Below, piece after piece: positions 14,379 through 17,447 of a stretch of DNA of 64,000 nucleotides. Numbering within the stretch: position 1 is the first letter of the stretch; the number at the start of each line of letters is the position of its first letter. Source of the DNA: Vulcanisaeta moutnovskia 768-28 (lineage in GTDB: Archaea > Thermoproteota > Thermoprotei > Thermoproteales > Thermocladiaceae). Location of the stretch: positions 248,001 to 312,000 of the forward strand of contig NC_015151.1 of the NCBI RefSeq assembly GCF_000190315.1, read 5' to 3'. The notes beneath the pieces were generated by a model that did not search any database, was not told the origin of the DNA, and was given only the letters and a program-made list of their open reading frames with translations. Both the position numbers and the translations under genes were made by a program.

Positions 14379-15572
14379 ATGTACCTTAGTAAGTATGAGG
14401 AAGCCATGCTTCATGGTGATTATGGAGATGCCATTGCAAGGGCAATGCAGGTCGTAGTTAAGGTCGGCGATGTATTAAAGGCTGATAGGCTCATTGAGAT
14501 AGAGACAGCGCATATTGCAGGTGTCTCCTACTTAACAATAGGTGATCCAGGTCTCGAGTACCTAGAGGATTTGGCAAAATCCAGTGCTAGATTTCACGTA
14601 TTTACAACGGTAAATCCTGTGGGCATTGATGTACTTAATGATTGGGGAATAGATAAGGAGTTCATTGACAAGCAATGGAGAATAATAAATGCATTAAAAA
14701 GTATGGGCGCTAGTCTATGGCTTACATGTACCCCGTACGAGTACCTACGGATTAGACCAAGGACTTACCATGCATGGGCTGAATCAAATGCAATTGCCTA
14801 TATAAATGCCGTTCACGATGCTTGGACCGAAAAATTACCGGGACCTTTCGTTGTTTTGTCGGCATTAGTTGGTAGGGTTCCAAGGTATGGGCTATACACA
14901 CTGAGTGGTAGGGTACCAACGCATGTAGTTAGGGTTAAGGGAGGGCAGGCAATTAATAATCCATTAATCGCGGGGCTCCTAGGTAGGAAAATTGCTGAGG
15001 AGGTCGGTGATGGAAAGCCATATCTGGTGGCTAAGTTTGGTGGCAATGCTGTAATTAAGCAATTACTGGCTAGCTATGCAACGTACTCACCCCATGCATT
15101 CATGGTAATCGATGGAGTAACACCAAATCATAAGGAGTACTTAGCAATGATGGATAAGCCTGAGGAAATTAATCTAGACATTAACGATATAATTAAGGAT
15201 TCCGGAGTAGAAAAACAAAATTTTGATGCCATATTTCTCGGGTGTCCCCATTATGGTATTGACGAGGTAATGTCAGTCATTAATTACGTAAGAAGCAAGG
15301 GATCCAGAAGGGCTAAAAAGCCCGTTTACATAACCACAACGCCCTTCGTAATAAACTCACTAAGTCAAGACGAACTTAATCTACTTGAGAATTCCAACAT
15401 ACACTTGGTATTAACCACATGTCCTGTTGTGTCACCTTTCCTCAAAAGCGTTGGGGTTAATACCGTAGCCACGGAGTCAGTTAAGCAAATGTATTACTTA
15501 CCTAAGATGATTGGCATTAATTATATAAGCTGCAATGGCATTAAGTGCCTAGACCTTGCATTTGATGAGTAA
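14379..15572 (+). CDS. aconitase X large subunit, probable phosphomevalonate dehydratase
   Basis: 397-residue AcnX catalytic subunit. In the archaeal modified mevalonate pathway, the AcnX large plus small (DUF126) subunits dehydrate mevalonate 5-phosphate to trans-anhydromevalonate phosphate. Features are the start MYLSKYEEAMLHG, LTIGDPGLEYLEDLA near residue 60, LTCTPYEYLRIRP near residue 115 with the cluster-region cysteine, DGVTPNHKEY, and LGCPHYGIDEV near 288 with another cysteine. A third conserved cysteine is in LTTCPVVSPFL. The small subunit gene is not adjacent: the next gene is a HAD protein. Assignment to the mevalonate route follows the characterised archaeal family; other AcnX substrates, such as cis-hydroxyproline, are unlikely here. 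Confidence 0.88.
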   Translation: MYLSKYEEAMLHGDYGDAIARAMQVVVKVGDVLKADRLIEIETAHIAGVSYLTIGDPGLEYLEDLAKSSARFHVFTTVNPVGIDVLNDWGIDKEFIDKQWRIINALKSMGASLWLTCTPYEYLRIRPRTYHAWAESNAIAYINAVHDAWTEKLPGPFVVLSALVGRVPRYGLYTLSGRVPTHVVRVKGGQAINNPLIAGLLGRKIAEEVGDGKPYLVAKFGGNAVIKQLLASYATYSPHAFMVIDGVTPNHKEYLAMMDKPEEINLDINDIIKDSGVEKQNFDAIFLGCPHYGIDEVMSVINYVRSKGSRRAKKPVYITTTPFVINSLSQDELNLLENSNIHLVLTTCPVVSPFLKSVGVNTVATESVKQMYYLPKMIGINYISCNGIKCLDLAFDE

Positions 15573-15575
15573 GGG

Positions 15576-16022
15576 GTGATACTCATTAAGTACGTATCCT
15601 TTGATATCGATGGAGTCCTGGTTAATTCGGAGAGCAGGTTAAGGCTTTGCCTTAGGCCTAATAACGAAGTTGATTGGGATTGCTTTCTTGATTGCAAAAA
15701 GCTGTTCATGGATAAACCTAAACCAAGGATTATAGATATTCTTAAACAGCTAAGGAATAGGGACTTCGGCATAATAATCGTTACAGGTAGGAGAGAATCA
15801 ATGAGGGAATGCACAATAAATCAATTAAGGAGTTTTGGTGTGAATGAATTTGAGGAATTATTTATGAGACCTGATAATAATACTGACCCGGACCCTATTT
15901 ATAAGTCATGGACAATTAAGAGCTTATTGAGAAGGTATGAAATATTGGTTCATTTTGATGATAATGCTGATACTGTATCAACTTTGGTAAGTAATGGTAT
16001 TGACGCTGTGGTAATATCATAG
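15576..16022 (+). CDS. small HAD-family phosphatase
   Basis: 148 residues from a GTG start 3 bp after the aconitase X stop. Motif I is VSFDIDGVLVNS (DxDG), motif II is IIVTGRRES, a Lys lies near 113, and motif IV is HFDDNADTV. There is no large cap, a size and pattern like polynucleotide-kinase-3'-phosphatase-type or LNS2-like HADs acting on larger substrates. The biological substrate is unknown. It is probably cotranscribed with the aconitase X subunit and with the amidotransferase fusion 9 bp downstream. Confidence 0.8.
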   Translation: MILIKYVSFDIDGVLVNSESRLRLCLRPNNEVDWDCFLDCKKLFMDKPKPRIIDILKQLRNRDFGIIIVTGRRESMRECTINQLRSFGVNEFEELFMRPDNNTDPDPIYKSWTIKSLLRRYEILVHFDDNADTVSTLVSNGIDAVVIS

Positions 16023-16031
16023 TGATTAATA

Positions 16032-17447
16032 ATGATTAAGATAGGGGTATTAAGTATTAGAGGCGCAATGCCTTATTATGAAGAATTGCCATTTAACCTA
16101 CGTATTAATGAACCAAGCATCATTAAGGATCTTGATATGTTAATATTACCACCTGGAACCTTGGTGGAGTCCCAGATATTGCAACGTTATAATTGGATTG
16201 AAAAGGAAATTTGGGAATATGCTGAAAGGGGTGGGCTTACCATAGGTGTTTGTTCAGGTACTCAATTATTGTCAAGAGCCGTAAATCTCAATGTTAGAGG
16301 GCTACCTGGGTACTCTAAGGGACTTGGCATCCTAGACGTTATTTTTGAACCATTAATTGTTACAGGACCTGTGAGGGTTAGTATCGTTAATGAATCATGG
16401 GTAACCAGGAATATTGTAAATACTGAATTAAAGGGCTGGCAAGCACATACATATGGTAGAATGAGGATTCTATCGGATAATGTGCAGGTCGTTGGAGTAT
16501 CGCAAGTGCCAAGGCATAATTATAGGAATGCCGAGATTAACGTACCTACGTTAATCATATCACGCAAGTACAACGTATTTGGTACCATGGTTCATGGATT
16601 ACTAGGACCTAGATCTCCAATAACGAGGAATATACTTAGTGAAATTGGGGTTTATAATGAAAATGAAATTTCTAATTACTACAGAAGTTACCGCGAGAAT
16701 GAATGGATGAGTAGAGAAGGTGGTAATCCTGGAATGAGCACTAGAATAATCACCGTCGTGTCCACAATGACTGGCGAAGGTAAGACATTAATAACAAGTG
16801 CATTGGCCCTCTGCTTAAGCAGGGCTGGTTATTACGTAGGTATTGCCAAATTGGCAGGTGATATTAGGGACTTACACCCAAGTCTCTATATCCTTAATAG
16901 ACCATTTAAGCCATGGATGAGCATAAAATTAAGGTGGGGAAGTAAATCACTTGGTTGGATCGACTGGAAGGAGACACTGAGTACAGTCAGGAGTATTGGA
17001 TTAGATATATTGATTATTGAGGGTGTTATGGGACTCTTGACAGGCTCATCTAGAAGATATAAGCGTGGCTTTTCATCCACATTAGACTTCATAAGGCAAA
17101 CAAACACTGATACTGTGTTGATAGTTTCCGCGAACCTTGATGGTATTGAGGGTGCATTATTCAGGTTAAGATCATACATTAACCTGTTAATTAGGAATGG
17201 TAAAAAACCAATCCTGACAATCCTTAATAATGCATATGATGGCACCCATGAAAATAGAAAATTAAGGAAATTCGAGAGATACGCCAATAGGTTAAGCATA
17301 CCGTTTGTGGTGGTTAATTCATTGGCCATATCATCAAAACCTGAGGAGTTAATAGATCTTGAGGATTATAAGGACTCAGCAATCAATATTTCAAGTATTT
17401 TATGTAGCGCCTTAATTAATGCATTAGGTAAATCACGGTTATTATAG
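16032..17447 (+). CDS. CbiA/CobQ-like protein with swapped domain order (amidotransferase first, P-loop ATPase second)
   Basis: 471 residues. Residues 1-225 are a class I glutamine amidotransferase domain of the CobB/CobQ type: catalytic Cys in GVCSGTQLL and His in FGTMVHGLLGP. Residues 236-471 are a dethiobiotin-synthetase-like P-loop domain: STMTGEGKTLITSAL (Walker A) and IIEGVMGLLTG, which matches the CbiA acidic motif. In CobQ, CbiA and related a,c-diamide synthases the P-loop domain precedes the amidotransferase, so here the order is reversed. Likely chemistry is ATP- and glutamine-dependent amidation of a carboxylate on a tetrapyrrole or other acid; the substrate is not inferable. No other cobalamin gene is in the window. 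Confidence 0.8.
   Translation: MIKIGVLSIRGAMPYYEELPFNLRINEPSIIKDLDMLILPPGTLVESQILQRYNWIEKEIWEYAERGGLTIGVCSGTQLLSRAVNLNVRGLPGYSKGLGILDVIFEPLIVTGPVRVSIVNESWVTRNIVNTELKGWQAHTYGRMRILSDNVQVVGVSQVPRHNYRNAEINVPTLIISRKYNVFGTMVHGLLGPRSPITRNILSEIGVYNENEISNYYRSYRENEWMSREGGNPGMSTRIITVVSTMTGEGKTLITSALALCLSRAGYYVGIAKLAGDIRDLHPSLYILNRPFKPWMSIKLRWGSKSLGWIDWKETLSTVRSIGLDILIIEGVMGLLTGSSRRYKRGFSSTLDFIRQTNTDTVLIVSANLDGIEGALFRLRSYINLLIRNGKKPILTILNNAYDGTHENRKLRKFERYANRLSIPFVVVNSLAISSKPEELIDLEDYKDSAINISSILCSALINALGKSRLL

Follow-up and report, generated by a model that had tools for sequence, protein, structure and literature searches.

Cobyrinate a,c-diamide synthase (CbiA) and cobyric acid synthase (CobQ) both place a P-loop ATPase domain ahead of a glutamine amidotransferase domain. 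One gene of Vulcanisaeta moutnovskia 768-28 encodes the same two domains in the opposite order. It lies at 16032–17447 (+) of the window, by which we mean the whole 64,000-nt stretch analysed here (NC_015151.1, positions 248,001 to 312,000), in a single-contig genome of 2,298,983 bp. Does this reversed protein have a substrate of its own, as a first-pass annotation of the DNA suggested, or does it belong to corrin synthesis? Our best reading disfavors a separate amidase acting on a substrate of its own. It is probably an alternative cobyrinate a,c-diamide synthase, a function proposed from sequence comparison, because its homologues in Bathyarchaeia lie in corrin gene clusters, it is a hybrid with a CbiA-type P-loop domain, and the CbiA slot of its genus is otherwise vacant.

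Domain order and ancestry of the two halves

The gene is a single uninterrupted open reading frame (ORF) of 471 amino acids (aa), with an ATG start and a TAG stop. Pfam assigns GATase_3 to residues 25–193 (42 bits; cut-off 27) and the CbiA P-loop to residues 240–418 (27.7 bits; cut-off 25.4). Since both domains exceed their curated cut-offs, the reversed order described in the first-pass annotation is real and above chance. A frame error or misassembly joining two adjacent genes, for which the unusual order is the sole argument, has a negligible probability: the identical fused order recurs within the genus, in nine more genomes, and beyond it in other archaeal groups, and these many full-length relatives exclude it.

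Counting the window genome, 12 genomes of the genus were compared, and 11 contain the reversed protein; the exception is a 54%-complete assembly, and one of the 11 copies is frameshifted in a draft assembly. The full-length copies of the same order are 54–78% identical in the nine other genus genomes, 34–37% in a sister genus, and approximately 30% in Bathyarchaeia and Methanobacteriaceae. The gene is under purifying selection: against the nearest relative, nonsynonymous divergence (dN) is 0.143 and synonymous divergence (dS) is 1.62 (dN/dS ~0.09). In a genome scan that detected 126 relatives, the best 80 belong to Bathyarchaeia, Methanobacteriaceae, and a small number of other archaea. A plasmid search returned only partial matches below 40% identity. 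One reversed-order protein, from Bathycorpusculum (G280, locus L048), has glycine in place of the nucleophile cysteine (GIGSG), which could be a real loss or an assembly error.

The two halves resemble different parents. Against domain profiles built from the normal-order CobQ and CbiA-like proteins of the genomes analysed, the amidotransferase half of the window protein scores 32.8 bits for CobQ and 3.8 for CbiA, while its P-loop half scores 37.1 bits for CbiA and 10.7 for CobQ. The same holds for all 21 reversed proteins compared, in which the P-loop half favors CbiA (mean 70 versus 27 bits) and the amidotransferase half favors CobQ (mean 44 versus 9 bits). On these scores, the reversed protein is a hybrid, more than a permuted CbiA; a simple circular permutation of CbiA is rejected because the halves score to different parents.

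Family motifs follow the same division. The amidotransferase half carries G[IV]C[SA]G.Q and G...H, and thus resembles CobQ/CbiP (NF001989; G-[IV]-C-x-G-x-Q, GTxxHG). The P-loop half has K.[GA][GP]D[IV]RD and EG[VA]M..[FL]TG, whereas normal CbiA and DsrN proteins have KxGPD[YF]ID and EGVxG[LI][YF]D[GS]. The window protein thus lacks the CbiA signatures GPD[YF]ID and [YF]D[GS]; it has GD-I-R-D and LTG instead, with both aspartates and the glutamate retained. We take the altered positions to be Y46, L47, and D97 of Salmonella CbiA, and the retained ones to be D45, D48, and E90. The resemblance to normal CbiA therefore lies in the P-loop with its conserved D..D and EG motifs and in the proposed reaction; the differences are the CobQ-type amidotransferase, these substitutions, and the domain order, which is the reverse of the CbiA/CobB model (TIGR00379). 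CobQ identity is rejected as well: the CobQ-type P-loop motifs (KAQNMSLN, EGAGS) are absent, the order is opposite, and the genome has a separate, normal CobQ.

An AlphaFold2 model (26 sequences) has a mean predicted local distance difference test score (pLDDT) of 90.7 and a predicted template modelling score (pTM) of 0.90. In a fold search against the PDB, the amidotransferase half matches the single-domain class I amidotransferases GatD, HisH, and PdxT, and the P-loop half matches dethiobiotin synthetase (BioD) and HypB. No two-domain Cob structure was listed in that search. By motif, Cys74 and His188 are the nucleophile and catalytic histidine expected of a class I (GATase_3) enzyme, and are equivalent to C94 and H189 of GatD (PMC5871853). 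GatD, among the top structural matches, shares this dyad but is a stand-alone subunit of MurT/GatD with a peptidoglycan substrate.

NCBIfam already has a named model for this architecture, NF004921/PRK06278. The window protein aligns with this model over its full length in amidotransferase-then-P-loop order (residues 3–454 against model positions 2–446 of 482; E = 1.1e-75), and shares its motifs. Its score is 255.4 bits, below the equivalog cut-off of 354, compared with 608–615 bits in Methanobacteriaceae and 440–533 bits in Bathyarchaeia; it also differs from the family in its ~30% identity, its gene neighborhood, and a shorter C terminus. Among 300 Thermoproteota genomes, 20 scored above the cut-off, with the Vulcanisaeta-like genus and its sister genus g3 falling below. 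In the literature searched, which included work on bathyarchaeial cobalamin genes, we found no paper on the PRK06278 family or its reversed domain order. Because of the subthreshold score, we place the window protein outside the equivalog proper: it is a divergent sister lineage of the NF004921 family.

Separate phylogenies of each domain, a check proposed in the first-pass annotation, unite all reversed proteins on one branch, with support in the Shimodaira–Hasegawa-like approximate likelihood ratio test (SH-aLRT) of 99 for the P-loop and 97 for the amidotransferase; the genus branch is long in the P-loop tree. Both trees are midpoint-rooted, and the placement of the P-loop nearest to CbiA relies more on profile scores than on the tree. 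The earlier suggestion of a separate family therefore holds for a distinct monophyletic lineage, but the architecture itself was already in the databases. It has likewise been assigned by name, whereas no characterization of the enzyme was found in the literature searched.

Corrin amidases in Vulcanisaeta and its relatives

The normal-order proteins whose presence the first-pass annotation asked about do coexist with the reversed one. Four near-complete genomes of the genus (G000, G007, G010, and G011) each encode CobQ, one normal-order CbiA homologue, and the reversed protein. The normal-order homologue, of 461 aa, adjoins genes for SUMT, ATP sulfurylase (sat), and an AprA-like protein in G000 and lies approximately 12–16 kb from dsrAB in all four genomes; it is therefore DsrN-like, DsrN being a siroheme amidase (PMC10504309). 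No other normal-order CbiA was detected in these four genomes. Conversely, the sister genera (G012, G015, G018, G021, and G014) encode CobQ, a DsrN-like protein, and a second CbiA-like protein of 440–448 aa, and have no reversed protein. The DsrN-like identity of the normal-order protein, together with this cross-genus pattern, suggests that the reversed protein fills the vacant CbiA slot, which disfavors a substrate of its own.

The roles could in principle be swapped, with the reversed enzyme amidating siroheme and the DsrN-like protein acting as the true CbiA. Both are amidases of the CbiA superfamily, and DsrN- and CbiA-type proteins both exceed the TIGR00379 cut-off. We consider this very improbable given the sulfur-metabolism setting of the 461-aa protein in the four genomes. 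That protein also falls in a starred clade with the 457–490-aa sister-genus proteins, separate from the CbiA-like second copies of those genera, and reversed homologues sit in corrin clusters and in methanogens. DsrN, like CfbB (Ni-sirohydrochlorin a,c-diamide synthase), resembles the reversed protein in superfamily and in chemistry on tetrapyrrole acetate side chains, but both have the normal order and fall in a separate clade in both trees.

Two genomes of the genus, G007 and G010, contain a cbi cluster (CbiG, CbiX-CbiC, CbiD, a CbiT-like protein, and four methylases) and no other CbiA; the cluster requires one, and the reversed protein is the strongest candidate. In G007, a Mg-chelatase-like ATPase with a VWA domain lies approximately 3.5 kb from the cbi cluster (L181:1714–3657) and is possibly part of a metal chelatase.

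Several observations weigh against the proposed CbiA function. The score falls short of the equivalog cut-off, and the three CbiA motif positions are altered in the window protein and throughout the reversed family. Within the genus, the gene adjoins aconitase X and HAD genes rather than corrin genes. The complementary pattern between genera may reflect one evolutionary event rather than many independent observations, and DsrN could be bifunctional. Finally, CbiD and the corrin methylases are missing from the window genome, which has just three tetrapyrrole methylase-family matches and thus no evident de novo corrin synthesis.

These points lend some weight to the alternative that the genus enzyme has been redirected to an acid other than a corrin, perhaps one tied to its aconitase X and HAD neighbors: that synteny is kept genus-wide, the long genus branch scores below the NF004921 cut-off, and the protein occurs in genomes without CbiD. 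We nonetheless regard this as unlikely. The family-conserved catalytic and P-loop residues are retained, and G007 and G010 make corrin with only the DsrN-like protein as another CbiA candidate. Sister genera lacking CbiD keep a normal CbiA, CobQ, CbiB, and CobS, and so likewise have the late pathway without the early one. The window genome retains CobQ, CbiB, and CobS, and the Caldivirga-like sister genus g2 resembles it in this respect but has a normal CbiA. The simplest reading is that both would finish an early corrinoid acquired from elsewhere.

Homologues in Bathyarchaeia and Methanobacteriaceae

The bathyarchaeial orthologue is embedded in a hem/cbi corrin gene cluster. This arrangement holds in approximately 31 to 38 of the 41 loci, a set that includes several truncated contigs. 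On one flank it adjoins a divergent hemA-cbiX-cbiC gene, followed by cbiD, a CbiT-like methyltransferase, cbiG, and several tetrapyrrole methylases; downstream are a met8-like gene, hemB, hemL, hemC, SUMT, and hemD. The earlier remark that no corrin genes surround the gene is thus true of the window, where we found none beside it, but not of its bathyarchaeial homologues. At one locus (L059:7650–10199), glutamyl-tRNA reductase, CbiX, and CbiC form a single ORF of 849 aa, which is two ORFs in other Bathyarchaeia.

Six Bathyarchaeia that are 90–99% complete (G207, G264, G217, G237, G258, and G212) have neither a normal CbiA nor a CobQ above cut-off; the sole full-size protein of the CbiA/CobQ type detected in them is the reversed one. 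CbiD is present in the four of these that were searched (G207, G264, G217, and G237), with two copies each of CbiB and CobS. In such genomes, either the reversed enzyme does more, or CobQ has diverged past detection. Under the first option, the enzyme of at least some lineages would carry out the CbiA as well as the CobQ amidations, on as many as six side chains, consistent with these gene sets and with its CobQ-like amidotransferase half. We think it rather improbable: the window genome encodes a normal CobQ, as do the methanogens, and a highly diverged CobQ in Bathyarchaeia might escape detection. Separately, Bathyarchaeum G124 encodes a normal-order CbiA-like protein (L193:9861–11333) in which ECGG reads EQGSS and GHEFH reads GNDFR; its glutaminase half is probably dead, and it may use free ammonia or a partner.

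Methanobacteriaceae encode three such amidases: CobQ, CfbB (653 bits; cut-off 560), and the reversed protein (615 bits; cut-off 354). As CobQ and CfbB are both otherwise accounted for, elimination suggests that the reversed protein is the CbiA. Methanogen cobalamin genes are reported to be unclustered (PMC3087415), which makes weak clustering there uninformative.

Gene neighborhood, proposed mechanism, and significance

The positions of the gene, its domains and motifs, and its neighbors are given in Table 1. The aconitase X and HAD neighbors named in the first-pass annotation are borne out by profile matches. Aconitase X, the HAD phosphatase, and the reversed amidase (14379–17447) are separated by 3 and 9 bp, and appear functionally unrelated; given the 9-bp gap, the HAD gene and the reversed ORF are probably cotranscribed. 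The order of the three genes is kept across the genus (L190–L192), and aconitase X was not seen at the homologous loci outside it. In sister genus g3, an AsnC/Lrp-type regulator lies immediately 3' of the reversed gene (L188 11719–12165; L189 6280–6726).

Table 1. Features of the reversed-order gene and its upstream neighbors (window coordinates).
Feature	Position	Strand	Evidence
Reversed-order amidotransferase/P-loop ATPase, 471 aa (putative CbiA equivalent, PRK06278-like)	16032..17447	+	Intact ORF; NF004921 match; full-length relatives
N-terminal class I glutamine amidotransferase domain, CobQ-like, ~residues 1–212	16032..16667	+	GATase_3; domain profile; AlphaFold2 model
Predicted nucleophile Cys74 (GVCSG)	16251..16253	+	Alignment column at least 90% conserved; motif equivalence to GatD C94
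His139 (QAHTYG)	16446..16448	+	Invariant in alignment
Predicted catalytic His188 (GTMVHG)	16593..16595	+	Invariant; motif equivalence to GatD H189
Inter-domain linker, ~residues 213–236, confidence minimum at 231–233	16668..16739	+	AlphaFold2 pLDDT
C-terminal CbiA-type P-loop (dethiobiotin-synthetase-like) ATPase/amide-ligase domain	16740..17393	+	CbiA 240–418; domain profile
Walker A STMTGEGKT, residues 244–252	16761..16787	+	G250, K251, T252 invariant
D-I-R-D motif, residues 277–280, replacing CbiA D-[YF]-I-D	16860..16871	+	D277, R279, D280 invariant
EGVMGLLTG, residues 330–338, replacing CbiA EGVMGLYDG	17019..17045	+	E330, G331, M333, T337, G338 invariant
Aconitase X large subunit, upstream	14379..15572	+	PF04412, E = 1e-101
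Small HAD phosphatase (PNKP-like), upstream	15576..16022	+	PF25109, E = 1e-11

As an alternative CbiA, the enzyme would hydrolyze glutamine in its N-terminal CobQ-like domain through the Cys74/His188 dyad and hand the ammonia, presumably by channelling, to the C-terminal CbiA-type P-loop domain. With Mg-ATP, this domain would act on cobyrinic acid or a closely related corrinoid, converting its a- and c-acetate side chains to acyl phosphates that are then amidated, and CobQ would afterwards complete cobyric acid. Substrate and product are both putative; in the window genome the substrate would be an acquired corrinoid. A bolder scenario, to which we give little credence, is that the swapped hybrid is an independent archaeal invention of corrin amidation that performs all side-chain amidations in CobQ-less Bathyarchaeia and lets Vulcanisaeta finish a scavenged early corrinoid.

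The family is already in databases, and the function predicted here matches its automatic name. The hybrid origin, the evidence from the CbiA slot, and the bathyarchaeial CobQ/CbiA gap appear to be undescribed in the literature searched. For annotation, order-agnostic domain calls would mislabel the reversed protein, and the Vulcanisaeta branch scores too low for the NCBI model to capture it. More broadly, the protein shows that the halves of these amidases can derive from different parents and be joined in the reverse order, a point relevant to ammonia transfer between them. The reversed protein is thus a candidate for the missing B12 step in Methanobacteriaceae, where CfbB is used for F430, in Bathyarchaeia, and in Vulcanisaeta-like Thermoproteales.
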